A DNA stretch of 40,076 nucleotides from Candidatus Poribacteria bacterium (GTDB lineage: Bacteria > Poribacteria > WGA-4E > PCPOR2b), in the NCBI GenBank assembly GCA_022822005.1, contig JAJECO010000011.1, positions 1 through 40,076 on the forward strand, written 5' to 3'. Below the pieces are notes generated by a model that saw only the letters and a list, made by a program, of their open reading frames with translations, was not told the origin of the DNA and did not search any database. This document shows positions 5,942 to 34,313 of the stretch, in pieces; position 1 is the first letter of the stretch; each line of letters begins with the position of its first letter. Both the position numbers and the translations under genes were made by a program.

Positions 5942-6454
5942 TTATCTTTTTCGGAATACGCCCCAACCTTGACGAATTCTATTTTTCCATGTAGGCAGGT
6001 CGTCGCCATCCTCAACGCTTGCGTTCTCATCACTTTCCGAATTTCCTTCTATTACATGCTGGTAGGCAGGTATTTCCTCTTCCACGTCAAACTGGGGCGT
6101 GCTCTGGATTAACCCAATATTGCGGCGTGCCTCATCAAAATCCGGATTAATCATTAACGCCTGCTTCCAACAGGCGAACGCCAACCGCGCGTTGCCTTGC
6201 TTGTAACAGATAACCCCCAACTTGTTGTAGGCCTCAGTTAAGGTGGGGTCAACAGAAAGCGCTCGCTTAAATGCTTCGATCGCGCTTTCAGTCTTACCTT
6301 GGTTCATGTAAGCACTTCCAAGGTTATAATGTATCTCCGCAAGATTCGGATCTTTACGAACGATCTCTTCCCATTGAGCAATCGCCTCTTCAAAGCGATT
6401 CTGTTCCCAATATTCAATGGCTCGATCGTTAGCGATTTCAGCTTGCTTACTCAT
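5942..6454 (-). CDS. Tetratricopeptide repeat protein
   Basis: This is a soluble protein-protein interaction scaffold with no signal peptide. Its 170 residues hold three consecutive TPR units (about 5-38, 39-72 and 73-106) with the classic pattern, for example AEIHYNLGSAYMNQGKTESA and EAYNKLGVICYKQGNARLA. A charged linker and a basic tail (WKNRIRQGWGVFRKR) follow. It is the last gene of the minus-strand run that starts at the UspA gene at 12164, but a gap of about 290 bases separates it from the BrxF-like ATPase gene, so it may have its own promoter. Its partner is unknown; the neighbouring PCP_red proteins are candidates by position only. The ATG has only a weak ribosome-binding site. Confidence 0.85.
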   Translation of the reverse strand: MSKQAEIANDRAIEYWEQNRFEEAIAQWEEIVRKDPNLAEIHYNLGSAYMNQGKTESAIEAFKRALSVDPTLTEAYNKLGVICYKQGNARLAFACWKQALMINPDFDEARRNIGLIQSTPQFDVEEEIPAYQHVIEGNSESDENASVEDGDDLPTWKNRIRQGWGVFRKR

Positions 6455-6746
6455 GAATCATTCCAATCTGGTGGTATAGGTGGGTTGTGTAGGCTTGATA
6501 TTAGCATCCGCGAACAGCCAATCTGTTGCAGTTTATTTCCACTCTTGAGAGTTTGCGTAGATCGTATTTGTCCGGTTCTCTTTACCAAGCCGCCTCAATA
6601 TCAAGGAAGGCGATTAATTGTAACATTGCTAAACAAACTATATCACATTTCGCAATTTCAGTCAACATCAAAGTCAAATAAACAGTGGCATTTAGAGATA
6701 CCCGCAGAGGCCCAGTAGGGATTTTAAAACAGCCTTACAAACAGGT

Positions 6747-7247
6747 TCAATTTGAGTTGATTCGGATCTCCCCGGCAAGATTCCAGCTAAAGTCAAGGCA
6801 GTAGCCATGTTTTTTGCTTTCAGGCACGCAGATGATGCAGTACTTACCGTCACGGGCGAAACGATCGGTGATAGCAACAAGATTGAGTTCGTAGGAATAG
6901 ATCATTTCAATAGCATCAAAAACGAGGAGATTGCGCGTTTGAAAATGTCTATCAAGTAGATCTTCGATAGCGATTTGTATCAGGAGGTGTATCTTTGCTT
7001 TCGCGCCGGCGTAGGCAATTGAGGCCCGCTGCTTATCTAATTCATCAAGCAGATACAGATTCAGGTTCACGTAACAATCTGTAGCGTTGTCGTATCTTCC
7101 TTTGAGCAGATGCTTGACTAAGTTCGTTTTGCCTGATTGGAAATCTCCGATGAGACAAATGGTCCCGTGCTCAGGTCCCGAATCAATGTGAGAGATTAGA
7201 GCTTGGTAGGCTTTCCACTGATTTTTATTGAGCGGGTATATTGGCAT
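6747..7247 (-). CDS. P-loop ATPase resembling BrxF
   Basis: This is a 166-residue single-domain NTPase with a Walker A motif GDFQSGKT near residue 34. A strand CYVNLNLYLLDEL is followed by the charged helix DKQRAS. A Walker B-like strand reads LLVFDAIEMI. From memory, the order of P-loop, then VNLNLxLL, then LLxFDxIE resembles BrxF, the small P-loop protein of BREX phage-defence loci. No other BREX gene (methylase BrxX, PglZ, BrxC) is in the window. Here it sits just downstream of a coiled-coil PCP_red protein, so a house-keeping or partner-ATPase role is equally possible. The P-loop is clear; the BrxF resemblance is a recollection that needs a profile search. No convincing Shine-Dalgarno supports the start. 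Confidence 0.7.
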   Translation of the reverse strand: MPIYPLNKNQWKAYQALISHIDSGPEHGTICLIGDFQSGKTNLVKHLLKGRYDNATDCYVNLNLYLLDELDKQRASIAYAGAKAKIHLLIQIAIEDLLDRHFQTRNLLVFDAIEMIYSYELNLVAITDRFARDGKYCIICVPESKKHGYCLDFSWNLAGEIRINSN

Positions 7248-7334
7248 GGGGTTAGACTCATCTCAGAGAGGAGACGTCAAGAAATCTTCCCAGTGGAAGT
7301 GTGGCAGAGGAAACTCCTCCGTTTCTTTACACTG

Positions 7335-7748
7335 TCAAAAGGTTGCGGCTTTTTCAAAGAAGTCAATTTCGATCACATCTACGTTCGCCTGTCGAGCATT
7401 GTCAGCGACCCGCTGAATAACCATCTCGCGCACAAACGGGATAGGGATACGTTTGACACGGTGGACGACTTCCTCCGTGCAGCGGATTGAGGTATTCCCC
7501 AAGAATGGCCCTTCTTCCGACTTTGCCTCAGAAGGATGATCGCATGTCTCCGGCACAAGCTGCTGCAATCGCATTGAGACGTAATCAGTTACCCACCCTT
7601 TGAGTGCTTCTCCTTTCTCCTCATTAACAGCAGTTGGCTGGGGTCTCTCGTCCAACTTCTGGCTAATACCAACCAACAAATCTTCCAATCGATTCAACCG
7701 ATCCTCAACCGCAGATAACCGTTCTTCAACTCTGTTTTCGCTATTCAT
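7335..7748 (-). CDS. Coiled-coil protein with C-terminal PCP_red-like domain
   Basis: The 137-residue protein has two parts. Residues 1-40 form a heptad-patterned helix (VEERLSAVEDRLNRLEDLL), likely an oligomerising coiled coil. Residues 90-137 align by eye with the PCP_red domain found twice nearby: CTEEVVHRVKRIPIPFVRE, then a VADNAR helix and DVIEIDFFEKA. A cysteine replaces the usual initial tryptophan. The start is well supported by GAGGAG eight bases before the ATG. It lies between the radical SAM gene and the BrxF-like ATPase gene in the same direction. PCP_red (Pfam PF08369) is known from the C-terminus of the BchB subunit of dark protochlorophyllide reductase. Function here is unknown; docking or tetrapyrrole handling is inference. 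Confidence 0.75.
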   Translation of the reverse strand: MNSENRVEERLSAVEDRLNRLEDLLVGISQKLDERPQPTAVNEEKGEALKGWVTDYVSMRLQQLVPETCDHPSEAKSEEGPFLGNTSIRCTEEVVHRVKRIPIPFVREMVIQRVADNARQANVDVIEIDFFEKAATF

Positions 7749-7862
7749 TATTTTTTCTCCTCAACTGTGCAAACATCATGCGTGAAACGTGGTTTAATTT
7801 TGAATCGCTGAGTAGATAAAGACTGACACAAACGCACTGAAAGTATATCTATCAGCTTTATT

Positions 7863-9164
7863 TTAGCGCCGAGGTCTGAAGGACGGAATTCCTGTCTTAT
7901 CAAACCGTTTTTTGACAGCTTTCATGATTTCCGGGGTAATTTCAGAGTAGCCGTGTTCGCGGGCATATTTCTCGACACTTTTGGTGACCATCCCCCGCGC
8001 GAAGGAGGGCACCCGGTCTAATCTTTGCTGCGCAGCCTCTGTCCATTGTAGCTCGTAGTCGGTTTCAGCTGCGAACGGGGTAGTCTTCTCAAACTTAATG
8101 TTTGTCTCTCCGGCCTGCCCTGGTTGATAATCGCAGGAGGGATCTTCAGCAAGATAGTTATCAGTAGCGGCATAGGCACGTGCTCGGCAGCCGCCGCAGA
8201 CGTCTCGAAATTCGCAGACCCCACACTTGCCCTCCAGTAATTTTCGATCTCGTAACTCTTGAAAGACCTTGGATCGGTTCCACAGCGTTGCAAAACTGTC
8301 CATCTTTAGATTGCCAACGCTGACCGGCATATACGGACACGGCGTCAGATCGCCTTCAGGAGTGATACGGCAGTAGTAGATACCACAGGGACACGTGCCA
8401 CTCGGATACGCTTGTAGGAAAGGCGAGTCTGATTGTTGCTCATAAATGACTCGTTTGTAGTGGGGTGCACATTTTGCTGCGACCAGCATTTTACCGCGAT
8501 ATTTAGCCTGCAACTCAAACAAGGTGGAGAGCATCGTTTCATATTGAGCGGGGGTGATGTCCATCACAGTTTTGCCTCGACCAGTTCTCACAAGGAAATA
8601 GAGGTTGAAGACCTTGGCACCGAGTTCATAGGCAAAATCAACAATTTGTGGGATCTCATCGTAATTCCAACGGGTCACAGAGGTCTGCACAAGAAAATCG
8701 AGGTTTGCGCGCTTCAGTGCCTCGACACCGTTCATGGTGCCTTCCCAAGCCCCTTCCATTCCTCGGAACTTGTCGTGATTGACCGGATCCACAGCATCCA
8801 AACTGATACCTGCGCCAGCGACACCATGGTCGCTCATTCTCTGAACCGTTTCGTCGTTCAGCAGGACACCGTTCGTACCCATCACTACTAAGAACCCGGT
8901 TCGAGCTGCGTAGTCTGAGATTTTCAGAATGTCAGGACGCAGCAACGGCTCCCCACCGGTGAGGATCAGAAGAACGTTCGGATTGATTTCAGCAATTTCA
9001 TCAATCACACGGAAGCACTGGGATTGGGTCAACTCTGAATCCCGATAATACCCATCCGGGAACTCGTTGGTATCCACAAACCCAGCGGGGAGATAGCAAT
9101 GTGTACATTTGAGATTGCATAGCCGTGTGATATTCCATGAAACGGCTTGGATTTTTGTTTCCAT
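7863..9164 (-). CDS. Radical SAM/SPASM protein with C-terminal PCP_red domain (AhbC/AhbD/NirJ-like)
   Basis: This 433-residue enzyme cleaves S-adenosylmethionine with a [4Fe-4S] cluster held by C16, C20 and C23 in the motif CNLKCTHC; the SAM-binding GGEP motif is near residue 70. A cysteine-rich SPASM-type region spans 258-344 (CPC, YYC, TPCPY, then CGVCEFRDVCGGCRARAYA) and would bind auxiliary clusters. This ending resembles the haem-pathway enzymes AhbC, AhbD and NirJ, which modify sirohaem or coproporphyrin side chains. Residues 373-421 add a PCP_red domain (WTEAAQQRLDRVPSFARGM). AAGGAA five bases upstream supports the start. It lies among an Mrp ATPase and other PCP_red proteins. Radical SAM chemistry is certain; a tetrapyrrole substrate is inferred, and peptide modification by a SPASM enzyme remains an alternative. 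Confidence 0.88.
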   Translation of the reverse strand: METKIQAVSWNITRLCNLKCTHCYLPAGFVDTNEFPDGYYRDSELTQSQCFRVIDEIAEINPNVLLILTGGEPLLRPDILKISDYAARTGFLVVMGTNGVLLNDETVQRMSDHGVAGAGISLDAVDPVNHDKFRGMEGAWEGTMNGVEALKRANLDFLVQTSVTRWNYDEIPQIVDFAYELGAKVFNLYFLVRTGRGKTVMDITPAQYETMLSTLFELQAKYRGKMLVAAKCAPHYKRVIYEQQSDSPFLQAYPSGTCPCGIYYCRITPEGDLTPCPYMPVSVGNLKMDSFATLWNRSKVFQELRDRKLLEGKCGVCEFRDVCGGCRARAYAATDNYLAEDPSCDYQPGQAGETNIKFEKTTPFAAETDYELQWTEAAQQRLDRVPSFARGMVTKSVEKYAREHGYSEITPEIMKAVKKRFDKTGIPSFRPRR

Positions 9165-9201
9165 CGTCGTTCCTTAAAACGCAATATGATGTTATGTATT
9201 T

Positions 9202-9267
9202 CACCGCAGAGAACGCAGCGTTTTTTTCATTAGGTTTTGAGCCCAAGGACCCGGCATCTCTGCGGTG
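9202..9267. repeat. 11-bp inverted repeat in the intergenic spacer
   Basis: CACCGCAGAGA (9202-9212) is matched exactly by its complement TCTCTGCGGTG (9257-9267), with 44 bases between. CACCGCAGAGA resembles a motif common in dispersed intergenic repeats of many bacteria. It lies between the CopD-like and radical SAM genes, so it would sit inside the transcript if they are co-transcribed. Confidence 0.6.
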
Positions 9268-9293
9268 CACATGTTTTGACGTGGATCCCCTTC

Positions 9294-9803
9294 CTATTGA
9301 TCTCCTATCATCTGGCGGAGATACAGAGAGCATGCAAAGACAACAAGCCCAACACCTATCGTAAAAATTCCGAATAGGTCTACTTTCCTTTGTAGCTTGG
9401 CAACCACCGAATCGTCGAAATTGGGATTTTCCACTGCCGATTCCAAACGGCGATTGAAAACGGCGATATGCAGGCTATGAAACAGTGTCATCAGTCCAAC
9501 AAAAACAAGTTTCGCAATAAAAACAATAAAATAACCGTAGTCCTGAGAAAAACGCATCTGCGTTTTTAGTCCGACGATGAACAGGTTCATCGCACCGGTG
9601 ATTAGGAGAATGTGGATTGTAAAGCGGATAATATGCCGCAGGCGATTCCGAATTTCGGACGCGCGTTGGACGCTTTCAACCATTTGAAAATGCTGCCTCA
9701 GAATCGGTGTTGCAACGGCAATTGACAAAAAGATGCCACCCAACCAAACGATCGCAGCAGTGAGATGTATCCAACGGATGAAGAGTTCGACAATTGGGAA
9801 CAT
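9294..9803 (-). CDS. CopD-like integral membrane protein
   Basis: This is a 169-residue inner-membrane protein with about four helices. The first reads FIRWIHLTAAIVWLGGIFLS, the WIHL...WLGG pattern of the CopD/YcnJ superfamily, which also resembles the first helix of HemJ, the oxygen-independent protoporphyrinogen oxidase. Further histidines lie in helix-associated positions (RHIIRFTIHILLI and FHSLHIAVF), so haem or metal binding is plausible. No strong Shine-Dalgarno precedes the ATG. It lies between the zinc-ribbon/PCP_red gene and the radical SAM gene. A HemJ-like role would fit a tetrapyrrole module, but sequence alone supports only CopD-like. Confidence 0.75.
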   Translation of the reverse strand: MFPIVELFIRWIHLTAAIVWLGGIFLSIAVATPILRQHFQMVESVQRASEIRNRLRHIIRFTIHILLITGAMNLFIVGLKTQMRFSQDYGYFIVFIAKLVFVGLMTLFHSLHIAVFNRRLESAVENPNFDDSVVAKLQRKVDLFGIFTIGVGLVVFACSLYLRQMIGDQ

Positions 9804-9885
9804 AAATGGGTAAGTTGACGTACACGGACCGATCTATTGCAGCTTGTGTGAGATGCATATCATCCGTTTTCGCTGTGATAGCCTC

Positions 9886-10386
9886 TTACATCCCAAAGTT
9901 ACCGCGTGCGGTATCCATCACTTCAGTGGTGATTTCAGGGTGTCCATTTTCACGGGCGAACTCTTCGATGCTAGCCTTCGCCATTGAGCGGACAAAACTA
10001 GGTACGCGCTCCAAACGCTCCAACGCTTCGGGGGTCCATACTGGCCCGGTCGGTTCCTGCTCTTGAAATGCTTCTGTCACAGCCGATGCGAACGGGCATT
10101 TCCCACCGTCTTCGGTGGAACCCACCGGTGCTTCTGAGGTCAGATTATTCGGATTCTTTTGACTCAGGAAGGATTGTACCATCTCCATTGGCTGCGCGGC
10201 TTCGCTCCTGCCACCAAGTTGAACATTGAGGGATTTTAGCATCTGGGTTTCCCACGGATTCATGTGCATCGCGAACTCAGCAAAGCAGTCTGGACACTCA
10301 AAGATTGCAGTCAGCGACCCTTGATCCGGCGTCGTTGTTTCCTTAAATTCCATCGCTGTGTTACATTCAAGGCATAAGAATTTCAT
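9886..10386 (-). CDS. Zinc-ribbon protein with C-terminal PCP_red domain
   Basis: The 166-residue cytoplasmic protein begins with a zinc-ribbon-like module whose ligands are probably C5, C8, C31 and C34 (CLEC and CPDC). A variable linker follows with one more cysteine in GKCPFASAV. Residues 116-164 are a PCP_red domain, with VWTPEALERLERVPSFVRSM, IEEFARENG and ITTEVM. This copy and the one at the end of the radical SAM protein are the two most alike in the window. GGAG about ten bases upstream supports the ATG. It starts 20 bases after the Mrp gene, so the two are probably co-translated. I know no characterised protein with this architecture; the metal could also be iron. Confidence 0.82.
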   Translation of the reverse strand: MKFLCLECNTAMEFKETTTPDQGSLTAIFECPDCFAEFAMHMNPWETQMLKSLNVQLGGRSEAAQPMEMVQSFLSQKNPNNLTSEAPVGSTEDGGKCPFASAVTEAFQEQEPTGPVWTPEALERLERVPSFVRSMAKASIEEFARENGHPEITTEVMDTARGNFGM

Positions 10387-10406
10387 TGACTGACTCCGTT
10401 TATATG

Positions 10407-11300
10407 TTATATTTGCGATTCAAAGAACATCCGAATTTCATCTGTGATGCTGAAAAATGTTTGTCCTGCGGGAGTATCTCGGTATTGATCAACAAACACG
10501 CTACCTTCATCTGCAGCGATAGAGATTCGTGGATCGAACGGTATTTTGCCGAGCAGAGAAACCTCAAATTGACTCGCCATCTCCTCCGTGTTGCCCGACG
10601 GAAACAGTTCTTCAGTTTTGCCACAATCGGCACACACATAGGCGGCCATATTTTCGACGATGCCGATTACCGGTGCGTTGAGCAGTTTCTTTGCCATCGT
10701 CAGCGATTTTTTGACGACAAGCTGGGACACTCCAGAAGGGATTGTAACAACAACTGTGCCGCCGAGATTAGGCAGGAGATCGACAAGATTTGGCAATCGG
10801 TCAGTACCGGGGGGAAGATCAATCAGCAGATAATCAAGAGATCCCCACTCGGTATCAGAGAGAAATTCACGGAGGGCACTCATCTCCATAGTTCCTCGCC
10901 AAGTAAAGGCATCCTTCTGCGTTTGGGATTCCCAGAGAACTGGAGTTTCGTCATCCTTGAGGAACAGATCCATCGACATCACCTTGACCCCAAGCGGGCT
11001 GATGGCAGGTTTAACACCATCGTCACCATAATCAATTCGCTGCCCTCTCACCCCCATCATTTTAGCGATCGAGGGACCATTGATGTCGGCATCAATCACG
11101 CCAACATTGTGCCCACGCAACCCAAGTACCGAAGCGAGGTTTGCCGTGACCGAACTCTTGCCGACGCCGCCTTTTCCACTCATGATGGCAACAGTGTGGC
11201 GGACCGACGCCAATCGTTGTTGTAAGCGATTGACTTGCTGTGTCACTTGTCCAACGATATTAGAGCCGCCATCGGCGGGAAGGTCTTTGTAGGTTTTCAT
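10407..11300 (-). CDS. mrp: Mrp/NBP35-family P-loop ATPase (iron-sulphur carrier)
   Basis: This is a 297-residue cytoplasmic ATPase of the Mrp/ApbC/NBP35 family, whose members carry and insert Fe-S clusters into target proteins. The deviant Walker A is SGKGGVGKSS (residues 41-50), the switch I aspartate is in VIDADINGPSI, and switch II is LLIDLPPGTDRLP. Family members usually have LPPGTGD, so the second glycine is replaced here. C223 and C226 (YVCADCG) are the pair that binds a bridging cluster in dimers. The N-terminal domain of unknown function seen in many bacterial Mrp proteins is absent. The gene is nine bases after the UspA gene and 20 before the zinc-ribbon/PCP_red gene. An obvious local client is the cluster-rich radical SAM protein. 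Confidence 0.9.
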   Translation of the reverse strand: MKTYKDLPADGGSNIVGQVTQQVNRLQQRLASVRHTVAIMSGKGGVGKSSVTANLASVLGLRGHNVGVIDADINGPSIAKMMGVRGQRIDYGDDGVKPAISPLGVKVMSMDLFLKDDETPVLWESQTQKDAFTWRGTMEMSALREFLSDTEWGSLDYLLIDLPPGTDRLPNLVDLLPNLGGTVVVTIPSGVSQLVVKKSLTMAKKLLNAPVIGIVENMAAYVCADCGKTEELFPSGNTEEMASQFEVSLLGKIPFDPRISIAADEGSVFVDQYRDTPAGQTFFSITDEIRMFFESQI

Positions 11301-11309
11301 GTTTTCTCA

Positions 11310-12164
11310 CTAATGATAAATAAACAACGGTATACCCGCCTGCGCCACCAAGGATTTGGTCACACTGCCGAAAACGAACTCAGACACGTTTCGTTTCCCA
11401 TATGCTCCCATAACAAGCAGATCAATTTCGTGCTCTCGGATGTAGGACAGAATGGCTTCATCTGCCCTTCCTCTCAAGTGGACCGTTTCAGGTTGCACTC
11501 CATATCTTTTAAAATAATCACCGAGCCTGCCGAGCAACTGTATTCCACGACTCGCACTATTGTTGACATTCAGGAGAGTGATGTCGCATTGATTCCAGAT
11601 ATGAAGCAGGAGAAACATCTGAATTGCTTTGGTAACTTGGACACTGTTATCATAAGCAACAAGTACTTTTTTAATCTGCCTGACAGATTCGGGAACTGCA
11701 AGGACTGCGGTCAATCCTTTATGGAGAATTCTATCCAAGGTGTTGCCCGGTTCGTGGCTGATGTTATACCGAAAAAAGGTCTTCTGCCCAATTATAATAA
11801 AATCGTGAAATTTTGATTCCTCAATAATTTCCCGAAATGGGCTGCCCATCTCTGAATGGATTGAGTGGTGAATCTTTTTCTCCTGACAGTGTTTCCCAAA
11901 ATCCGTAAGAACTCCATTTACTATCTCTCGCGTATCTTCGAGGTGTTGTCGGTCAGCGACCCGATCATAGATTGGTCCAATGGACGCAGAACCCGTTGCA
12001 CGCCGGATACCGGGCAAATCAATTACGCCAATGCCAGTTAGCGATGCGTTATGTTCAAGGGCGATTTGTGTGGCATATTCGACCGCTGCCTGAGAATAAC
12101 TTGAGCCGTCGAGACACACCAGGATTTCTGCAAAATGTGAAGGATTTCTGAGAGACATTGGCAA
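11310..12164 (-). CDS. Tandem universal stress protein (UspA family)
   Basis: The 284-residue cytoplasmic protein has two Usp domains, about 10-150 and 160-284. The first opens ILVCLDGSSYSQAAVEYA and the second VLVAYDNSVQVTKAI. Only the second keeps the ATP-binding signature G-x2-G-x9-G-S (GAYG then GS, in MGAYGKRNVSEFVFGSVTKS); the first is degenerate, so ATP would bind mainly in the C-terminal half. It is the first gene of the minus-strand run leading to Mrp and the PCP_red proteins. A perfect FNR-type palindrome lies 82-95 bases upstream, which suggests oxygen-responsive expression, as known for Usp genes in Pseudomonas. A methionine two codons in is an alternative start; neither has a clear Shine-Dalgarno. 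Confidence 0.9.
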   Translation of the reverse strand: MPMSLRNPSHFAEILVCLDGSSYSQAAVEYATQIALEHNASLTGIGVIDLPGIRRATGSASIGPIYDRVADRQHLEDTREIVNGVLTDFGKHCQEKKIHHSIHSEMGSPFREIIEESKFHDFIIIGQKTFFRYNISHEPGNTLDRILHKGLTAVLAVPESVRQIKKVLVAYDNSVQVTKAIQMFLLLHIWNQCDITLLNVNNSASRGIQLLGRLGDYFKRYGVQPETVHLRGRADEAILSYIREHEIDLLVMGAYGKRNVSEFVFGSVTKSLVAQAGIPLFIYH

Positions 12165-12245
12165 ACTGCGATCTAAATTGGCACATGCCCGGTGTGGATA
12201 TACGCTGGATAATTCATTTTCAGAGGGTGATTAGACACACTATAT

Positions 12246-12259
12246 TTGATAAAGATCAA
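12246..12259. promoter_or_regulatory. Perfect FNR/CRP-superfamily operator
   Basis: The sequence TTGATAAAGATCAA matches the FNR/ANR/DNR consensus TTGAT-N4-ATCAA exactly. It lies between the divergent UspA and sigma-fusion genes, 82 bases upstream of the UspA start. Confidence 0.6.
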
Positions 12260-12378
12260 TAGCACACTCTTGGTTCTGTTCCATTTGATCGGGAGATTAG
12301 CACGTAGCACCGTCACGGCGTGGGTCACGCCTAGGCCAGTTTCCTGCGAGGGCAAGTTGTGTAATTGATAAAACAATT

Positions 12379-12392
12379 TTGATATGAGTCAA
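12379..12392. promoter_or_regulatory. Second FNR-like site (one mismatch)
   Basis: TTGATATGAGTCAA matches the FNR consensus except for G in place of A at the first base of the right half-site. It lies 133 bases from the perfect site in the same 503-base spacer (12165-12667). Apart from the two sites and an AT-rich stretch near 12410-12450, I see no gene in the spacer. Confidence 0.4.
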
Positions 12393-12667
12393 TGGTATTC
12401 TTAAAGCAATTCAAAGTTAAATATAACATATCATCAATGGAATATCAATAGGAAATACGTATTACCGGTTTAGAGGAATGAACGAAACCATCCCAAAATA
12501 TTGCATCTTCCGGGAAATTCGAGATTTCACACAATTTCTTAGCGTGAACTGAGCTCTTTACGCAAAAAAAATAGTCTTGCTGGGAACATCCGCCAAAAAT
12601 CTGCGTCATCCATAATAAGCGTGTAGCATTTACACTACAACCCAATACTTGATACACGGAGATTCTG

Positions 12668-15478
12668 ATGGCACAAAGTGACTCGGAACTTATAAAGCGA
12701 ACGTTGGAAGGCGATGAAAACGCATTCGGTTTTTTAGTGGATAAATACAAGGGCGCGGTCCACGCCCTTGCCTACCGCAAAATCGGGGACTTTCACATCG
12801 CCGAAGACATTACGCAGGACACCTTCCTCAAGGCATATCAGAAATTATCAACGCTGAAGCATCACGCTCATTTTCCGGGTTGGCTGTATGTGATTGCAGC
12901 GAGGTGCTGCATCTCCTGGTTCAGAGAAAATCAACACCCAACCCAATCCCTTGACCAAGTAGACACGGCGCAAATTGAAGCATCGGCTCAAACGAAGTAT
13001 GCTGATAATCGTTTGCGTAAGGAAGTCCGAGATGCGCTTGATAGCCTGCCTGAAGGTGACCAGACTGTTCTAACGTTACATTACTTGGGTGGAATGACCT
13101 ACGAAGAAATTAGCAGTTTCATCGGCACTTCAACTAGTGCCATCAAGAACCGTCTCTATCGTGCTCGACACCATCTAAAGGAGGAGGTAATCAAAATGAT
13201 ACATCAAACTTGGGGAACTTTCCAACTCCCACCGACACTCACACAACAACTGATTGAAAACCTCTATCGCCTTAAGCCGACTGCAACACCGAACGGTAAA
13301 CCGCTCGCGCCTTGGGTCACCGCGATTACGCTAGGGGTGGCAACGTTGCTTGTCACAGTTGGTATGTTCACAACTTCACAATTCCGGCATCCCTATTCTC
13401 TTAGTATATCCACCCCAGTAGAGATGGTAGAATTGGCGGAAGCATCGATTGCCATGACTCCCTCGCAAAAACCACGGCTTTCAAATCACTCTGGTGGAGA
13501 CAAAAGTCCTGCTTTGGCTGTCGCAGCCGGTGCGGACGATACAACGGAGATAGAAAATCCGCGGGGAAGCATTTCTGGACAGGTTATTTATGCGGACTCA
13601 AACAAGCCCGCTGCTAACCTACCAATCCGCGCTGTTGGTATGGAACCGGGTATGGAAGTACGTATCACACACACAGATATGGCTGGCGTGTACATCTTGA
13701 AGGATATAATCACAGGACCGTACGTTGTCATGATTGGTGATACGTGGGAATGGCACAAGATTTTTGCTTGGCGTGCTCCCGCCCAAGAAGGCATCCATGT
13801 GAAAGCCGATAATGTGTATACTGGAGTGGATTTTTTGTTGACCCCGGGGGCGTTTGTGGAGGGTCAGATTACAGACGGTGCCACGGGACAACCTGTGGCA
13901 GGGATGCAGATTCAGGTTTACGACGCTACACATCCACCAAGTCAGGGTATGGGACATCGGCTCGAAACTGATACAAATGGACGCTATCGATTCCGTGTGG
14001 CCCCCGGATGGGTAGGTATCTCTGCTAACCCAAGTAATACCGGCTCAGAATATTACTTTGAATATCCTGAAGGGCAATCTGGAGAGGAAATCGCGGAGGG
14101 TGAAACAATTTCTGACATTGATTTCGTCTGTCATCGTGGGTACACCATACACGGCACTGTCCAGAGAGCAGATAACGAACCGGTGGCGGAAGCATCTGTC
14201 CGTTTGGCTATGGGCACTGGGTTTAACCTCCACACCCAGACCGATGAACGAGGACAATTTAGACTCAACGGTATTCCTAGAAACATACATGAAGTAATCG
14301 TAGATGCTGAACATGAACTTCTACACGGACGAGGAGCCTGGTCGAAAGGGCAGACAGATCCCGTGGTAATTACAGTTGCCCAACGAATCACTGCCACTAT
14401 TGTTGGGCAAGTGATCGACGAAAGCGGCAATCCAATCGCCCACGCTGGCGTTGGGTTAGGTTGGGAGGAGGGGTATGATGGAAGATCGACCTCCTCACCC
14501 ATTACAGAAACCGATTCAGAGGGAAACTTCACCGTGGGCCCGAAATTCCATAGAGAGTGGCTGGAGATTGGTAGAGTCTATCAGGTTTATGCGAAAGCAG
14601 CCAACTATGGAATAACCTCCTCTGAATGGTTCACCTTAGGAGAAGGTGCTAGGGACGTTCCAGATCTTGTACTGCCAAAGGCAGAATACTTCATCGCCGG
14701 ACAGGTTGTTGACTCGCAGGGGCATCCCATCAGTGGAGCACTTGTGAACGCTGAAGGTTCTCGCACAGGAGTAATCACCTTCACGGACTCAGAGGGAAAA
14801 TTTCACCTGAAGGATATTGCTGATCGCCGCGTAGGTGTATATGCATGGCATGCAGGTTACCTTCCCTCGAACCCGGGTGCCAAATTCGAGGCAAACCGAG
14901 AAGACCTGCAACTGGTTTTGCCGCCTTTGCCGCCCAAGAGATCGATGTTAACAGATGACAAAGACAATACAATAGAACCTTACCTAGAACCTTACCCTTT
15001 CCCACATCCATTGGAGGGCAAACCTGCGCCTGAGTTGAAGGTTGACCGTTGGTTCAATACCGAACCGATAGGGCTGGGATCGTTACAGGACAAGGTTATT
15101 GTCCTAAATTTTTGGTCAAGCATCGTCAATTCAGAAGATTGCACCGTTTGGTTCTCTGTGCTGAATCGTATCCACGACCAATATAGCGATGAAGGGGTTA
15201 TCGTAATCGGGGTGCATACTTCTGCCGATCTCGAACACTATCCCGATATCCAAGGAGCTATTGACCAAGAGCAAATTAGATACCCAATCGGAATTGCCAC
15301 AAAGGACTCAGAGAATAAATTCGGTGCCACGTTCAGAGACTACTCAATCGATCCCATTCCAACAATTTTACTCGTAAACAAGGTAGGCGAGATGCAATCT
15401 CTGTTCCGAATCGGACAATCTCTTAGCCAATTGAAACAATCTCTTGAAGCAAAGGTGCTAGTGTTGTTGAAGGAGTAA
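12668..15478 (+). CDS. ECF sigma factor fused to a membrane helix, carboxypeptidase-regulatory repeats and a thioredoxin-like domain
   Basis: This 936-residue protein joins transcription control to a surface module. Residues 8-75 are sigma region 2 (FGFLVDKYKGAVHALAYRK, AEDITQDTFLKAY) and 120-172 are region 4 with its helix-turn-helix (GGMTYEEISSFIGTSTSAIK). A membrane helix lies at 216-235. About five carboxypeptidase-regulatory-like beta repeats follow (roughly 301-390, 396-490, 494-573, 579-670 and 676-750), then a TlpA/AhpC-type thioredoxin fold (783-930). The thioredoxin site reads NFWSSIVNSEDC and lacks a CxxC pair, so disulphide chemistry is doubtful. Everything after 235 should be periplasmic. 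GGAG six bases upstream supports the start. A strong internal ribosome-binding site precedes M177. Sigma factors of this kind are, as I recall, frequent in Poribacteria and Planctomycetes; the signal sensed is unknown. Confidence 0.88.
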   Translation: MAQSDSELIKRTLEGDENAFGFLVDKYKGAVHALAYRKIGDFHIAEDITQDTFLKAYQKLSTLKHHAHFPGWLYVIAARCCISWFRENQHPTQSLDQVDTAQIEASAQTKYADNRLRKEVRDALDSLPEGDQTVLTLHYLGGMTYEEISSFIGTSTSAIKNRLYRARHHLKEEVIKMIHQTWGTFQLPPTLTQQLIENLYRLKPTATPNGKPLAPWVTAITLGVATLLVTVGMFTTSQFRHPYSLSISTPVEMVELAEASIAMTPSQKPRLSNHSGGDKSPALAVAAGADDTTEIENPRGSISGQVIYADSNKPAANLPIRAVGMEPGMEVRITHTDMAGVYILKDIITGPYVVMIGDTWEWHKIFAWRAPAQEGIHVKADNVYTGVDFLLTPGAFVEGQITDGATGQPVAGMQIQVYDATHPPSQGMGHRLETDTNGRYRFRVAPGWVGISANPSNTGSEYYFEYPEGQSGEEIAEGETISDIDFVCHRGYTIHGTVQRADNEPVAEASVRLAMGTGFNLHTQTDERGQFRLNGIPRNIHEVIVDAEHELLHGRGAWSKGQTDPVVITVAQRITATIVGQVIDESGNPIAHAGVGLGWEEGYDGRSTSSPITETDSEGNFTVGPKFHREWLEIGRVYQVYAKAANYGITSSEWFTLGEGARDVPDLVLPKAEYFIAGQVVDSQGHPISGALVNAEGSRTGVITFTDSEGKFHLKDIADRRVGVYAWHAGYLPSNPGAKFEANREDLQLVLPPLPPKRSMLTDDKDNTIEPYLEPYPFPHPLEGKPAPELKVDRWFNTEPIGLGSLQDKVIVLNFWSSIVNSEDCTVWFSVLNRIHDQYSDEGVIVIGVHTSADLEHYPDIQGAIDQEQIRYPIGIATKDSENKFGATFRDYSIDPIPTILLVNKVGEMQSLFRIGQSLSQLKQSLEAKVLVLLKE
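13180..13198 (+). promoter_or_regulatory. Internal ribosome-binding site and in-frame ATG within the sigma fusion
   Basis: GGAGGAGG (13180-13187) is followed after eight bases by ATG (13196-13198), which is M177 of the fusion and in frame. It lies exactly at the end of sigma region 4. Re-initiation here would give a separate 760-residue membrane protein without the sigma domains. Confidence 0.5.
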
Positions 15479-15510
15479 AACGGGTATACAAGAACATGGG
15501 AGGTTATCGA

Positions 15511-16836
15511 ATGAAACGAAAACAGCAAGGCTTCATGCTAAAAAGGGGCACAAAAGAACAACGGAGAGATAGCCGGGGGAAAATTTCGATTTCTTTATTA
15601 TATTCCTTGGGGTTTTTGTTATTACTTCTTTGGTCTGTTGGTTGTAGCCCAAATCTGAATCCACAGGACACCATTTCCAATGCAGGAACAGAAGCTGATT
15701 TTAATGGGGTGTTAGCAGTTGTAGATATCTCTGATCCTGCAAAGCCTGTCAAGGTTTCTTCGACTTTCCTTCCTTCAAAACTACACTATTATAGTAGTCT
15801 AACTGTCTGGAAGCAGTTCGTGTTAGCAACCACAGCTTATGGCGTACACCTTTTAGATATGGAGAAGCCGGCAGCACCAAGACTGCTGTGGAATCTTCCG
15901 CTTCCAATGCTTTCAGGAAAACCCGTGATCTTCAAAAATTATGCTTTTTTCCCGACTCAAAATGGGTTGAATGTCCTTCACCTCAAGAACCCACTGGAAC
16001 CACAATGGGTGTTTCCAACAGGGGGAAAGGGAAATCTCCGCAGTCACCTCATTGACCTAAAAATCAAGGGAGACTATGCTTATACATACGACGTGCACAA
16101 GTACTTGCATGTGTTAAATCTCTCACAGCCTGAACAGCCTAAATTAGTTAATTCCTACGCGATTCAATCTCCTCCTTCCGTTCTATTGCTACGAGCCTTA
16201 GGCGAAGAAGCAAGACCAATCAAAATCAACGTCGATTCTTTAACGGATAGAATCCGCGCCTTTCATTTAGAGCGATTATATTTACTGTCAGCCCTTTCGA
16301 ACCACCTTGCCGATCGGACTAACTTGATTGAGTTAAGTGCCAATTGGAGGGTTAGAGTCGTTACAACCCCGCAATATATCTGCTGGGTGTATCGCTACGA
16401 CGATTATTCTCAATTGTGGTTCTTACCGTGGCAAGAGAATCATATTTATTCCTTAGATGTTATTCCGGCATATACGAAGTACCTGTATAGTTCGGGCAGG
16501 CATCCCGGGGGTGAAGATATAACAGATGTCATTAGAGGAGAGTGGGAGGATGAAAACACGCTTTATCTTATTTTTGAAACCGATTGGAAAACAACGAAAA
16601 TTAACCAAAGCGAAGGAGGGCGTGTTACAGACTTTCAACTTTCGACGGATTTGGCTTATATCTTAAGGGAACATGGTGTGTTATTTATTGCGAAACTATC
16701 TACCACGGACAGGTTGGAATTGAAAGGAATGGCTCTCCTCGAAAACCTCCCCCAGTCATCGCAGACACTTACCTTGGATAAAAACTTCCTTTATGTATTG
16801 GGTGAGAAATCCCAACCGGAGGTTCAAAGCAAGTGA
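15511..16836 (+). CDS. LVIVD-repeat-type lipoprotein
   Basis: The 441-residue product is a predicted lipoprotein. A basic N-terminus and a hydrophobic stretch (about 28-43) end in the lipobox WSVGC. The mature part contains short repeats such as GVLAVVDISDPAKPVKVSS, GVHLLDMEKPAAPRLLW and YLHVLNLSQPEQPKLVN, the pattern of LVIVD repeats that build beta-propellers on cell-surface proteins. I place the start at 15511, because GGGAGG at 15498-15503 is correctly spaced for that ATG, rather than at the in-frame ATG at 15496, whose own codons contain that motif. It follows the sigma fusion after about 30 bases and is probably co-transcribed. Its ligand is unknown. Confidence 0.8.
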   Translation: MKRKQQGFMLKRGTKEQRRDSRGKISISLLYSLGFLLLLLWSVGCSPNLNPQDTISNAGTEADFNGVLAVVDISDPAKPVKVSSTFLPSKLHYYSSLTVWKQFVLATTAYGVHLLDMEKPAAPRLLWNLPLPMLSGKPVIFKNYAFFPTQNGLNVLHLKNPLEPQWVFPTGGKGNLRSHLIDLKIKGDYAYTYDVHKYLHVLNLSQPEQPKLVNSYAIQSPPSVLLLRALGEEARPIKINVDSLTDRIRAFHLERLYLLSALSNHLADRTNLIELSANWRVRVVTTPQYICWVYRYDDYSQLWFLPWQENHIYSLDVIPAYTKYLYSSGRHPGGEDITDVIRGEWEDENTLYLIFETDWKTTKINQSEGGRVTDFQLSTDLAYILREHGVLFIAKLSTTDRLELKGMALLENLPQSSQTLTLDKNFLYVLGEKSQPEVQSK

Positions 16837-16996: not shown

Positions 16997-18940
16997 CTAT
17001 TCTTGCGTCGTTCCCTCTTTATCGCTCTCCGCTTCAGCTGCGTGTTCGCCTTGCTGGTAATATGTCCCAAGCACCTCATTGTCCAGACTCCGTCCCTCCT
17101 CAATCACCTGCGCTGCAAAATCTAGGTTGATTGTTGTGAGGTCGGCTTCTTGTGCTCGCTGCTCGACACGGGATTGCGTGATGTTCCGCATAAATCCAGC
17201 GGGTACGAGGTTCAGTCGTGCACGGGCATCTAGCGTCCATTCAAGCGGACTTTCAAACGTTTCTTCTTGGGAGGTATCATCGGACTCGCGGGATTGCGCG
17301 ACAGCTTTCAGTTCAGGTGCATCTTCACGGACAGCGGAAGCCTGATCCATACTCTCGTTGATAATTTGCATCGCGAATTCGTTGGTGATTGTGCCGATCT
17401 TCTGAACACGCGCCGATTTTTCGATTCGCGCTTTGACGTTACGTCGCATATATCCGCGCGGGACATTCCGCAACGCTTTTTTGGCTTGATCAGACCACTG
17501 GAGGCGCACACCGTCAAAGGTCTGCTCCTCACTGACACCACCCTCCTGATCTGCAACCCTCTGGAGTGAATCTTTATCAACCATCTGGAATTTGTCACCG
17601 TCTACGCCGCAAACGGGGCATTTTACGGGCTGCTGGTCTTTGGCAGCATAGCCGCAATCACCACAGATGTAGGTCTTAATAGCATTAGAATCGAGAACTG
17701 TTTGCGTTGCGACCTCTTTGGCAACTTTGGTCATCCGTTCCGCTGAACGTCCCGGCATAAAGGTCTCCATCGCCTGCTCAATAACGCTCTCGGTAATCAC
17801 AGAGTGTCCACGTTCAATAGCAAAACGGTGGACAGCGGTGCGTGCGATGCCCTGCACCTGCGGCGGTGCCTTCGCCATTCGATCTAAGGCCTCCTGTGTC
17901 CAGACTACTGTCTCCTCCGCTCTGACATCAACTTTGGGGACGTACCGCTGGCTCGACAGAAACACATTACACGGGGCAAGCCGTAATAAGTTCTCGGTGT
18001 TGCTGCCGATATCCATATCGGGATCGCTGTGAACGCCAATTCGACCCAACATCAGCATCCACGGTTCTGTCTTTCGGGCATACTGCAAAATCTTCTCAAA
18101 CGCTTTGCCGTCCAGCAAGGTAATTTTAAGATCGTAGTTGTGGTCTTCCTTGGCGATAGTCCGGGCAATCTCCAGATGGGATTGATAGATTTTGGCAAGT
18201 CCGGTGTCGATGACCTCTTCGTGCAGCTGTTCCTGCTCTTTGAATCGGAAGGTTTTGGAGGCACGCTCGGTTAGCACGCTGACAACCGAATTAAACACCA
18301 CATAGTGAAGATAGGGATCATACACACCAACGGCTTCAACTTGTCTATCAAATGCCTTACCAAGTCGGATTGCTGTTTTCAGTCCGGCGAAGGATTCGGG
18401 ACTACCATCAATTCCAACGAGAATATGTCCTTTCTGTTCGTGTATCTCTTCTATGTTTCGGACCACAAGGGTATCGGTCTCAATACGCCGCACAACCCGC
18501 TCAACAACACCGCCGAGTAGACTGTCCTTAACCGCCCCCATACCAAGGGCACCCATAATTACAAGATCGTAATCACTTCCTTGAATGTCTTCTGCCAACT
18601 TGATGAAGTGCTTACCCTCAGGCATTTTGGCTTCAAAGGGAATGTCATTTTCGGCACATTTCTTCTTCATAACCTCCAAGTACGAATCGGAGATTAACTG
18701 TAGCCCCATTGTAATCAATGTGTCATGAATGCGGCGCTGTTTCTCAAGTTCAGCTTCATCTTGGTATTCTTCGGGGAGCGTGTACTCCATTTGCTTGAAG
18801 CGAACATCGTGCATCTTCGCTGCATAAACGTGAGAGCCAACGAGTTGCGACTGAAATTTTTTGGCGAACTCCACAGCGAAATTGACGCTCGCGTCGGAAT
18901 GGTCTGAATTATCGACCGGCACATAGATTTTCTTAAACAT
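16997..18940 (-). CDS. Usp-Usp-PCP_red-rubredoxin-PCP_red-PCP_red multidomain protein
   Basis: This 647-residue cytoplasmic protein has an unusual order of domains. Two UspA domains come first (about 1-165 and 170-332), with ATP-site patterns GALG-x9-GG and GRIG-x9-GS. A first PCP_red domain (346-395, VWTQEALDRMAKAPPQVQGI) follows. A rubredoxin/rubrerythrin-type iron site occupies 424-455 (YICGDCGYAA, then CPVCG), giving four cysteines for one Fe. A second PCP_red (481-535, QWSDQAKKALRNVPRGYMRR) and a third (567-615, EWTLDARARLNLVPAGFMRN) complete it. The last two share an extra residue before the arginine and form a sub-type. It converges on the lipoprotein gene and lies downstream of fumC. 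A redox- or ATP-linked stress role is inferred; I know no characterised protein of this architecture. Confidence 0.88.
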   Translation of the reverse strand: MFKKIYVPVDNSDHSDASVNFAVEFAKKFQSQLVGSHVYAAKMHDVRFKQMEYTLPEEYQDEAELEKQRRIHDTLITMGLQLISDSYLEVMKKKCAENDIPFEAKMPEGKHFIKLAEDIQGSDYDLVIMGALGMGAVKDSLLGGVVERVVRRIETDTLVVRNIEEIHEQKGHILVGIDGSPESFAGLKTAIRLGKAFDRQVEAVGVYDPYLHYVVFNSVVSVLTERASKTFRFKEQEQLHEEVIDTGLAKIYQSHLEIARTIAKEDHNYDLKITLLDGKAFEKILQYARKTEPWMLMLGRIGVHSDPDMDIGSNTENLLRLAPCNVFLSSQRYVPKVDVRAEETVVWTQEALDRMAKAPPQVQGIARTAVHRFAIERGHSVITESVIEQAMETFMPGRSAERMTKVAKEVATQTVLDSNAIKTYICGDCGYAAKDQQPVKCPVCGVDGDKFQMVDKDSLQRVADQEGGVSEEQTFDGVRLQWSDQAKKALRNVPRGYMRRNVKARIEKSARVQKIGTITNEFAMQIINESMDQASAVREDAPELKAVAQSRESDDTSQEETFESPLEWTLDARARLNLVPAGFMRNITQSRVEQRAQEADLTTINLDFAAQVIEEGRSLDNEVLGTYYQQGEHAAEAESDKEGTTQE

Positions 18941-19030: not shown

Positions 19031-20419
19031 CTACTTGGGTCCAATCATCTGACCGGGAACGACAACGCGATCAAACTCTTCCTCGCTTAACAAGTTAAGT
19101 TCCACCACAGTCTGTCGTAGCGTTTTGCCTTCCTGATGAGCAGTTTTGGCAACCAATGCCGCATTGTCGTAGCCGATGTAAGGATTAAGCGCGGTGACAA
19201 GCATCAGTGAGTCGTTTAGGTATTCTTGGATTTTTTCGCGATTCGGCTCGATACCAACAACGCAGTTTTCATTGAACGAATCACAGGCATCTGCAAGCAA
19301 GCGGATGGATTGGAGTGCATTAAAAGCGATAACAGGCATAAACACATTCAACTCGAAATTGCCTGATGCCCCTGCAATCGCAACCGTCGTGTCGCTGCCG
19401 ATAACTTGGGCGCAAACCATTGTCATAGCTTCGCACTGCGTCGGGTTCACCTTCCCTGGCATAATCGAACTTCCCGGTTCATTCTCTGGCAACAGGAGTT
19501 CACCAATTCCGCAGCGAGGACCACTACCGAGCCAACGCAGGTCATTTGCTATTTTGTTCAGGGCACATGCCAGTGTTTTGATAGCACCGAGCGCCTCGAC
19601 GATAGCGTCTCGAGCACCGAGCGCCTCAAACTTATTCGGCGCCGTCACGAAGGGGAACCCGGTGCGTTTCGAGATTGCGGTCGCAGCTCTTGCTGCATAT
19701 TCAGGGTGGGTGTTCAGCCCAGTACCGACCGCTGTTCCACCGATAGGCAGTTCGTATAGGTGTGGCAGCGCGTGATCAATAGCCCGAAGCGAGTTATTCA
19801 ACTGCGTGACATATCCAGAAAACGCCTGCCCCAATGTTAACGGAGTGGCGTCTTGGAGGTGAGTGCGTCCGGTTTTAACAATATCCTGAAAGGCTTCAGC
19901 TTTTGCTGAGAGTGCATCCCGCAGGTCCGTCACCGAAGGAATTAGATGATTGTGAATGCGATCGACGACAGCAACATGAATAGCGGTTGGGAAAGCATCG
20001 TTCGTAGACTGAGACTTGTTGACATGATCGTTTGGGTGGATAGGTTCCTTACTGCCGAGGACCCCGCCAAGCATTTCGATGGCACGGTTCGAGATAACTT
20101 CATTGACGTTCATATTGGTCTGGGTGCCGCTGCCGGTCTGCCAGACAACCAGCGGAAAGTGATCGTCTAGGCTGCCATCGATTACTTCCTGTGCAGCTCT
20201 AATGATAATTTCAGCCAGATCCGCGTCCAGCGCGTCCAACTCTGCGTTCACTTCAGCGACAGATTGTTTGACAATACCGAGTGCCCAGATCATCTCACGC
20301 GGGAAACGTTCCCCACCAATCTTGAAATTTTGCAATGAACGCTGGGTCTGTGCGCCCCAATACCGATCTGTTGGGACCTCAATCTTCCCCATGCTATCTG
20401 ATTCAGTTCTTGTTTCCAT
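19031..20419 (-). CDS. fumC: Fumarate hydratase, class II
   Basis: This enzyme catalyses reversible hydration of fumarate to L-malate in the TCA cycle, as an iron-independent cytoplasmic tetramer. The 462 residues match the class II family in length. Diagnostic features are the opening [20 protein letters not shown], the substrate segments [18 protein letters not shown] and [19 protein letters not shown], the catalytic-site region [16 protein letters not shown] and the superfamily signature [16 protein letters not shown]. It starts 19 bases after sdhB in the same direction, so succinate-to-malate conversion appears to be one transcription unit (sdhC-sdhA-sdhB-fumC). Nothing is missing or odd in the sequence. 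Confidence 0.96.
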
Positions 20420-20438
20420 CTACCTCTCCACACCTACA

Positions 20439-21185
20439 TCATTGTTTCGGGCGAAAGATCCGAAATAGCTTCTTGATTGGGTCATAGAATTGGTCAACCA
20501 CCCGCTCTTTGAGCGGAATGATGGCATTATCGGTAATCGTGATATGCTCAGGACAGACTTTTGTGCAGCATTTGGTAATGTTACAATAGCCGATGCCATC
20601 CGTATTTTTTAACTCCTCCAGCCGATTTTCAGTGTCGAGGGGGTGCATTTCCAGTGCCGCAGCGTAGACAAAAAATCGGGGTCCAATGAACTTATCGTGC
20701 AGATCATGCTCGCGCAACACATGGCACACATCTTGGCACAGGTAGCATTCGATACATTTACGAAATTCTTGAACGCGATCAATGTCCTCTTGCGCCATGC
20801 GCCAAGTGCCATCGTCGGCGTCGGCTGGTCTCGGATTGAACGGTTTGATTTTTTTCTTAACCTCAAAGTTCCACGAGACATCCGTCACCAAATCCTTGAT
20901 AAGTGGAAACGCGTGCATCGGCTCAACGGTAACTGGTGCGTCAAGCGGAATCTCGTTAAGCCGGGTCATACACATCAATTTGGGATTTCCGTTGACCTCC
21001 GCTGAACAGGATCCGCACTTGCCGGCTTTGCAGTTCCATCGAACAGCGAGATCGTTAGCTTGCTCCGCCTGAATCTTATGAACTGCGTCTAGGACCACCA
21101 TCCCCTCAGAAACTTCGGTCTCGTAATCGACGAATTTTCCTTCGTTAGCGTCGCCTCTCCATATTCTGAAAGTTGCTGTTGCCAT
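20439..21185 (-). CDS. sdhB: Succinate dehydrogenase/fumarate reductase iron-sulphur subunit
   Basis: This subunit carries electrons from the flavoprotein to the membrane anchor of complex II. The 248-residue protein has ligands for three clusters: [2Fe-2S] at C52, C57, C60 and C72; [4Fe-4S] at C144, C147 and C150 with C211; and [3Fe-4S] at C154, C201 and C207 by analogy to the family (motifs CIECYLCQDVC and CNITKCCTKVCP). The start overlaps the sdhA stop by one base (TAATG), which implies translational coupling. The sequence style is closer to the Sdh1/fumarate-reductase-like subunits of Actinobacteria than to E. coli SdhB, matching the unusual anchor subunit next door. The physiological direction is inferred from the linked oxidase genes. 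Confidence 0.94.
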   Translation of the reverse strand: MATATFRIWRGDANEGKFVDYETEVSEGMVVLDAVHKIQAEQANDLAVRWNCKAGKCGSCSAEVNGNPKLMCMTRLNEIPLDAPVTVEPMHAFPLIKDLVTDVSWNFEVKKKIKPFNPRPADADDGTWRMAQEDIDRVQEFRKCIECYLCQDVCHVLREHDLHDKFIGPRFFVYAAALEMHPLDTENRLEELKNTDGIGYCNITKCCTKVCPEHITITDNAIIPLKERVVDQFYDPIKKLFRIFRPKQ

Positions 21186-22999: not shown

Positions 23000-23805
23000 T
23001 ACAAAATCCTCCAGTCCGACAAAACGCCCATCGAACACAACCGAACATAAACATCCGAAAATCCCACCCAGCAGAGACTCATCCACGCCCAGAGCATGTG
23101 CCGACGATTCAGACAACTGACGCAGTTATACGCGGTCCGACGAATGGGTGCACCTGAAAGTCTATCGCGGATGCCCCCAACAAGATGACGTAGCGAATGG
23201 CAACCGAGTGTATAGCCACCCAGCAAGATAGCATTACCCGTTAAGATTAGTGTGCCGATTCCGATACCAAACGATTTTCCACCGTTCCCGTTGTCAAACC
23301 ACAGTGCTTTCCAAGCATCATAGGCGAGAATTACTACGAAGATAAGTGCAAAGTACAGAAAGTATCGATGCACATTTTGAATAATCAACGGAAATGAGCC
23401 TTCGCCTCGGTATTCCTTACGTGGTTCGCTGACGGTACATGAAGGTGGGTCCGCCCAAAAGGCTTTGTAATAAGCACCGCGATAATAGTAACAGGTAAAA
23501 CGAAAACCGAGTGGTGCCCAAAGAATAAGGAGGCTCGGTGGAACCCAGAGTGGTAACCAGTCAGGTCTCCCAGCCAACCAGCTATGTCCCGAAATATGTC
23601 CTGCGGGATCAAAGAGCAGCGGAGCATAGAAGGGAGACAGATATGGTCCGTGATGATAGTGATCCCCTTGAAAGACCACCCATAGCGAATAAAGACCGAA
23701 AACAGACAACCCCAGAAAAACCGCCAAGGGTTGGAGCCACCAAGCGTCGTGACGTCTGGTTTGACCGAATCGGCGGTCGGTTAAAGTTAGTTCCGGATGG
23801 TTCAT
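22999..23805 (-). CDS. sdhC: Succinate dehydrogenase membrane anchor, Sdh1/type-F-like
   Basis: This 268-residue integral membrane protein anchors SdhAB and passes electrons to quinone. It has about five helices, more than the short SdhC or SdhD of E. coli. The opening DAWWLQPLAVFLGLSVFGLY and the following PYLSPFYAPLL recall the Sdh1 anchor of Mycobacterium (type F complex II). Histidines in NVHRYFLYF and GCHSLRHLVGG are candidate haem or quinone-site ligands. No second anchor gene is present, in line with a single large subunit. AAGGAGT six bases upstream fixes the start, 11 bases after sco. The type-F comparison is from memory and should be tested. Confidence 0.85.
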   Translation of the reverse strand: MNHPELTLTDRRFGQTRRHDAWWLQPLAVFLGLSVFGLYSLWVVFQGDHYHHGPYLSPFYAPLLFDPAGHISGHSWLAGRPDWLPLWVPPSLLILWAPLGFRFTCYYYRGAYYKAFWADPPSCTVSEPRKEYRGEGSFPLIIQNVHRYFLYFALIFVVILAYDAWKALWFDNGNGGKSFGIGIGTLILTGNAILLGGYTLGCHSLRHLVGGIRDRLSGAPIRRTAYNCVSCLNRRHMLWAWMSLCWVGFSDVYVRLCSMGVLSDWRIL

Positions 23806-24488: not shown

Positions 24489-24543
24489 GCAGCATAACCC
24501 CTAAGACGTGCAACGTAAAATTTTCTCACGTTTCACGCTTGAC

Positions 24544-24873: not shown

Positions 24874-24893
24874 CTTGATTCTCCATGTGATGA

Positions 24894-25520: not shown

Positions 25521-25523
25521 TTT

Positions 25524-25778: not shown

Positions 25779-25809
25779 AAGAAAATCTCCTCGTCGTTTT
25801 CTTCTTCAT

Positions 25810-26418: not shown

Positions 26419-26500
26419 CAGAATAGGAGGTAAAAGTTAAAAAAGGAGAAAAGTCTCCATCGCGAAACAGTCGAGGTTAGAAAATTTCGATCACAATATA

Positions 26501-30548: not shown

Positions 30549-30561
30549 TGGCGTTTCTCCT

Positions 30562-31242: not shown

Positions 31243-31259
31243 TTTTACAATAGAACTCC

Positions 31260-32852: not shown

Positions 32853-32875
32853 CAATCCCTCCTTGTAACGGTTAT

Positions 32876-34243: not shown

Positions 34244-34313
34244 ATACATCTCCTGATGTGTGGCGATGCGTAAATGGTCAGGAGTTCACTGTGGATTCAT
34301 CAAAACGAGTATG

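Follow-up and report, generated by a model that had tools for sequence, protein, structure and literature searches.

The PCP_red domain (PF08369) is known from the dark protochlorophyllide reductase, where it sits at the C-terminus of BchB/ChlB. The same domain recurs in a gene cluster on a contig of Candidatus Poribacteria bacterium (GenBank assembly GCA_022822005.1, contig JAJECO010000011.1; the whole stretch of 40,076 nucleotides analyzed, read on the forward strand, is called the window here). Unlike BchB/ChlB, the proteins of this cluster have no nitrogenase-like core, and a PF08369 scan of the whole 6.0 Mb genome (profile cut-off 32.5 bits) found no BchB and no further PCP_red protein elsewhere in the genome. 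The conserved core of the cluster consists of a Usp-PCP_red protein, a Mrp-type ATPase, a zinc-ribbon-PCP_red protein and a radical S-adenosylmethionine (SAM) enzyme with PCP_red, and it is common to three phyla. Across these phyla, it shows a near-perfect association with the gene of a CydA-like protein. We consider it probable that the core genes form a module dedicated to the maturation of a membrane respiratory complex, composed of the CydA-like protein and three cytochromes c.

The radical SAM/SPASM enzyme of the NirJ/heme d1 set belongs to the same group and adjoins cd1 nitrite reductase, the one respiratory enzyme that needs its modified tetrapyrrole (PMC7242693). Unlike that set, the window genes that were profiled include neither AsnC-type NirDLGH decarboxylases nor a cd1 gene, and the annotated nirJ locus that we inspected is devoid of PCP_red, Usp and zinc-ribbon proteins. 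AhbD is the top NCBIfam model for the radical SAM enzyme of the window, which differs from it by an extra C-terminal PCP_red domain and by tracking a respiratory complex instead of heme synthesis. Proteins of the TIGR04053 family in Thermus are 34–35 % identical to the enzyme; among the matches listed, the alignments stop before the PCP_red region, and the module genes are absent from the annotated neighborhoods. The TIGR04053 genes of Thermus and a haloarchaeon (L149, L150, L154) adjoin nosZ, nitrite reductase and a cbb3-type oxidase-like subunit. The OR-N type CydAA′ of Nitrospira/Nitrospinota, for which cytochrome c has been proposed as the partner (PMC10839748, PMC12342949), belongs to the cytochrome bd superfamily, as does the CydA-like protein. 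The likeness of these two lies in the superfamily and in the cytochrome c genes near the CydA-like gene.

The PCP_red proteins and their partners

Six PF08369 matches were found in the genome, every one of them on this 40 kb contig. They are distributed over four proteins, and five of the six domains score above the cut-off. All genes of this section lie on the minus strand. The zinc-ribbon protein (166 aa, 9886–10386; PCP_red at 9904–10038, 69.7 bits) and the radical SAM/SPASM protein (433 aa, 7863–9164; PCP_red at 7911–8045, 65.2 bits) are clear members, and the former has four invariant cysteines (C5, C8, C31 and C34). A 647 aa protein (16997–18940), called Usp-3PCP here, has the Pfam architecture Usp-Usp-PCP_red-rubredoxin-like (RUBY_RBDX)-PCP_red-PCP_red. 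Its three PCP_red domains are at 17771–17902 (44.2 bits), 17375–17497 (35.2 bits) and 17117–17239 (33.5 bits), and its ortholog adjoins cox and core genes in the three phyla. The fourth is a coiled-coil protein of 137 aa (ccPCP, 7335–7748), located after the radical SAM gene in Poribacteria families f1, f2 and f4. Its divergent PCP_red match (7347–7475, 23.9–25.5 bits) is below the cut-off and weak by itself; it is seen again in the conserved ortholog, which shows 54–96 % identity across the order. An earlier note on this DNA had named three PCP_red proteins, all of which were found, but it missed Usp-3PCP.

The structures 2kru and 2l09 served as references for the PCP_red fold. The model of the zinc-ribbon-PCP_red protein matched 2kru with an rmsd of 1.2 Å over 54 columns (probability 1.00, E 2.3e-3). 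An alignment of 218 distinct domains from module loci showed W, P and R positions in common, and no conserved Cys or His was found among these domains. PCP_red thus cannot bind iron or a cluster by way of such residues, and docking is the simpler reading. From the alignment, PCP_red appears to fit better as a docking domain than as a direct metal or Fe-S ligand. The module, in a genome devoid of BchB, supports a role of PCP_red outside (bacterio)chlorophyll synthesis too, as the earlier note had held.

The Mrp/ApbC-type Fe-S carrier ATPase (297 aa, 10407–11300) stands directly before the zinc-ribbon gene, and this position is conserved. It matches the ParA/NUBPL-type P-loop family PF10609 with 260 bits (cut-off 27.1) and is below the cut-offs of the equivalog models MrpORP (263 bits, cut-off 450) and ApbC. 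A second Usp protein (UspA2, 284 aa, 11310–12164), assigned by Pfam, is accessory and restricted to Poribacteria families f1 and f2. Profiles bore out the earlier calls of radical SAM and SPASM, ParA/Mrp-type ATPase and Usp domains. The 169 aa membrane protein at 9294–9803 had been called CopD/HemJ-like. Its match to CopD is marginal (PF05425, 33.2 bits, cut-off 32.1), the HemJ/UPF0093 part did not hold up (PF03653, 21.6 bits, cut-off 34.2), and the gene is not universal, being found, at a conserved position, in the Poribacteria version of the module only. The TPR and P-loop (BrxF-like) proteins at 5942–7247, which the note had counted as partners, were rejected as parts of the module: by tblastn against 20 regions, they are confined to the genus of the window, and the BrxF-like protein reaches only 19.6 bits (NF033453, cut-off 50).

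Gene order and association with the CydA-like gene

The gene order within Poribacteria was compared by tblastn of the window genes against the same 20 regions. In three families, the order is ctaA-ctaB-cox3-cox3-cox4-sco, Usp-3PCP, (UspA2), Mrp, zinc-ribbon-PCP_red, CopD, radical SAM-PCP_red and ccPCP. The CydA-like, cytochrome c, cox and module genes make up a single long cluster in this phylum; in some genomes the module is in two separate parts, both of which are retained. A class-level outgroup (G007) has a reduced version that adjoins its CydA-like gene. PCP_red is present in 71 of the 85 genomes of the phylum, mostly with six domains each, and is missing from family f3 of the same order and from nearly all genomes outside the order.

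A scan for the zinc-ribbon-PCP_red protein gave hits in one Acidobacteria, one Gemmatimonadales and two other bacterial genomes; of the last two, one shares its phylum with the Gemmatimonadales genome. Across 20 Gemmatimonadota regions, the genes follow one another as Mrp, zinc-ribbon-PCP_red, Usp-PCP_red, radical SAM-PCP_red, CydA-like, two cytochromes c, cytochrome c/EB_dh, CarboxypepD, COX2 and COX1, with few gaps. Most Acidobacteriota regions read CydA-like, two cytochromes c, cytochrome c/EB_dh, Usp-PCP_red, Mrp, zinc-ribbon-PCP_red and radical SAM-PCP_red; where COX genes are nearby, they are mostly on the opposite strand. No tblastn match to CopD was found in the regions of these two phyla, and CopD and ccPCP appear to belong to the Poribacteria version alone. 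The conserved neighborhood that the earlier note had proposed to look for, with at least four genes in order, is in substance present through the four core genes in Gemmatimonadota and Acidobacteriota.

In region L119 (10520–10770), a small frame that looks ferredoxin-like when the DNA is read by eye begins at the stop of a zinc-ribbon-PCP_red gene and is a possible electron donor. In L115 and L117 (approximately 9100–13500), Mrp and zinc-ribbon-PCP_red stand next to other large frames, with no radical SAM or Usp gene adjoining, and the other PCP_red proteins of the L115 genome are located at separate loci. Plasmid searches gave no module homologs, and the matches were only to bchB, canonical cytochrome oxidase and radical SAM relatives. 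Literature searches on PCP_red, PF08369 and PCP reductase turned up no paper describing the module, which does not exclude that one exists. The earlier idea of an undescribed module stood as regards conservation across phyla, but its partner, the CydA-like complex with cytochromes c, had been missed.

We searched 580 genomes of the three phyla with a CydA-like profile (A3). The CydA-like gene and PCP_red occur together in 145 of the 146 CydA-like-positive genomes. For Poribacteria, PCP_red was found in all 66 genomes with the CydA-like gene and in 3 of the 17 without it; one of these three (G066), when opened, had CopD, radical SAM-PCP_red and ccPCP on a short contig. The corresponding counts for Gemmatimonadota are 51 of 51 and 21 of 149. 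Most of these 21 have a strong PCP_red match in a frame of approximately 530–770 aa, which by its length may be BchB; two others (G104 and G247) have partial module genes on short contigs. In Acidobacteriota, PCP_red accompanies 28 of 29 CydA-like genes and occurs in 4 of 268 genomes lacking one. The sole exception (G513) has a CydA-like fragment at a contig edge. The coupling of the module to the CydA-like gene is strongly supported by these counts. A mirror-tree comparison (distance correlation of radical SAM, zinc-ribbon, Usp, Mrp, CydA-like and COX1) gave no discrimination among the genes, and its best-hit step misassigns genes, reporting a zinc-ribbon gene in G007, where no separate one was found.

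The heme-copper oxidase was also considered as a partner. Eight module-free Poribacteria have COX1 and no CydA-like gene, and the heme-copper oxidase was rejected as sole partner on this ground. Conversely, radical SAM-PCP_red, Usp and CydA-like genes are present in G007, where no COX1 match was found. Both observations link the module to the CydA-like complex, to which it is very probably dedicated.

In the genome of the window, the CydA-like gene is on another contig (C63:24238–25977). The protein matches Pfam cytochrome bd subunit I with 67–82 bits, and its profile matches to solved bd oxidases have E values of 1e-12 or weaker. Aligned with the canonical CydA of the same genome, it keeps two heme-ligand histidines (H19 and H186 equivalents) and the glutamate of the FFxE motif. 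The Met/Glu ligands (M393 and E445 equivalents) and the quinol-loop motif were not seen in this alignment, whose C-terminal part is uncertain. The adjoining cytochromes c suggest that cytochrome c may be the redox partner of the protein. Upstream in the same C63 cluster (L145, 1–17764) are genes for a Rieske protein, for cytochrome b in split form and for a cytochrome c protein that has eight CxxCH motifs, possibly a bc-type complex.

The radical SAM enzyme and its possible substrate

The radical SAM-PCP_red protein scores 322 bits against AhbD (TIGR04545), 301 against NirJ2, 274 against TIGR04053, 189 against NirJ and 125 against PqqE. These profile scores support its placement in the AhbD/NirJ group, to which the earlier note had likened it, as a predicted member. 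In 15 proteins from Poribacteria and Gemmatimonadota, the radical SAM cysteines C16, C20 and C23 (CxxxCxxC) and the SPASM cysteines C258, C276, C314, C317, C323, C326 and C344 are invariant. In the predicted model (pTM 0.74), a radical SAM core is followed by a linker at residues 350–369 (pLDDT <50) and a C-terminal PCP_red bundle. A tree with NirJ, PqqE and MftC had very long outgroup branches and was discarded for placement.

We propose that the CydA-like protein is joined with the cytochromes c in a single complex. The radical SAM enzyme would receive Fe-S clusters from Mrp and would carry out an AhbD/NirJ-like reaction on heme or another tetrapyrrole bound for the complex. PCP_red, which recurs on each of the special proteins, would be the docking handle that joins enzyme, carrier and Usp scaffold; the low-confidence linker before it in the model counts for such docking, which can be likened to the place of PCP_red at the end of BchB, itself a tetrapyrrole enzyme. 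That the chemistry of the module acts on a tetrapyrrole is a plausible but tentative proposal. More doubtful is its extension, that the radical SAM enzyme makes a new modified heme or tetrapyrrole serving as the cofactor of the CydA-like protein in at least three phyla and that tetrapyrrole enzymes outside chlorophyll synthesis generally use PCP_red for docking.

Several points weigh against a maturation module of this kind. The AhbD match spans the full length of the model yet is under the curated cut-off (322 vs 500 bits). The closest solved folds to the model of the enzyme are the peptide-modifying SPASM enzymes PqqE and SkfB; no AhbD or NirJ structure is among the matches listed, and the fold thus does not decide between a heme and a peptide substrate. 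The Fisher tests of CydA-like gene against PCP_red (5.8e-31 and 2.6e-13, and 6.8e-34 for Acidobacteriota) ignore phylogeny. Heme-copper oxidase genes are usually near the module as well. Canonical cytochrome bd is not known to require a module of this sort.

The enzyme could instead modify a protein: a subunit of the CydA-like complex would receive a SPASM-type cross-link or another change, and PCP_red would play the part of a RiPP recognition element. The PqqE and SkfB folds, the conserved SPASM cysteines and the nature of PCP_red as a small helical domain devoid of metal ligands would all suit this, but the profile scores widely favor the tetrapyrrole group, the other known home of PCP_red is a tetrapyrrole enzyme, and a short precursor peptide gene was not noticed in the conserved order. 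We regard protein modification as unlikely. More improbable is a function as an oxygen-independent heme b synthase, converting coproheme to heme as a low-oxygen backup for ChdC in general heme supply. AhbD is the top score, coproheme may be available from the ferrochelatase and ChdC-family genes present, and CtaA/CtaB adjoin the module in Poribacteria. Against this, the score is under the AhbD cut-off, a backup enzyme would not require three more PCP_red proteins, and the module tracks the CydA-like gene and not the heme enzymes. Within the order, the sampled genomes have ferrochelatase and a chlorite-dismutase/ChdC-family gene (58–68 bits only) whether they carry the module or, as in family f3, do not. 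Basic heme synthesis thus does not explain the module, and general heme supply was rejected as its main role. The ChdC-family gene is within approximately 5 kb of the module in two genomes (G016, C19:57299–57718; G014, C10:4494–4805) and elsewhere in the others. Matches to HemN_C do not distinguish HemN from HemW. A regulatory or stress-sensing complex of the respiratory chain, in place of an assembly system, would account for the two Usp proteins, the rubredoxin-like domain and the zinc ribbon; it leaves unexplained why Mrp and the radical SAM gene are fixed in the same neighborhood in three phyla, and we consider it very improbable.

Surrounding genes and wider meaning

Most of the contig outside the module is taken up by a heme-copper oxidase cluster that includes CtaA, CtaB and Sco. 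On the minus strand, Sco, Cox4, two Cox3, CtaB and CtaA (23817–28673), oxidase subunits with assembly proteins, adjoin Usp-3PCP across Poribacteria; COX1 and COX2 of this neighboring oxidase (34426–37233) were assigned by profile, and the cluster is conserved. The same strand encodes a putative ABC permease (37044–37838) and an ABC ATPase (37855–38808; profile match, kept in Poribacteria) of the respiratory cluster, together spanning 37044–38808, an exported CarboxypepD_reg protein of the cytochrome cluster (38823–39605; profile match, ortholog position conserved) and the cytochrome c/EB_dh-type protein of the CydA-like cluster (39767–40076), which is truncated by the contig end and is 37 % identical over 103 aa to a Gemmatimonadota ortholog.

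Some genes interrupt this arrangement. A 936 aa protein on the plus strand (12668–15478), with ECF sigma-70 regions 2 and 4, five CarboxypepD_reg repeats and an AhpC/TSA-like domain, and the gene at 15496–16836 separate Usp-3PCP from UspA2; these two are adjacent in sister genomes. RND efflux parts (an AcrB fragment, HlyD and OEP; 29507–34249, minus strand) separate COX1 from CtaA, which are close together in sister region L140, with no RND parts between them. Fumarase and fumarate reductase/succinate dehydrogenase genes (19031–23805, minus strand) stand between Sco and Usp-3PCP, an insertion missing at that place in several other Poribacteria families. An Rfam search of the window gave no match.

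The module is carried by sponge-associated bacteria, the Poribacteria, and by two further bacterial phyla. The analysis proposes a testable role for PCP_red beyond photosynthesis and for genes that recur in Poribacteria, Gemmatimonadota and Acidobacteriota. If it is right, a bd-superfamily complex in these phyla would require its own maturation machinery and may hold a new heme, with a dedicated gene set comparable to the heme d1 set for nitrite reductase.

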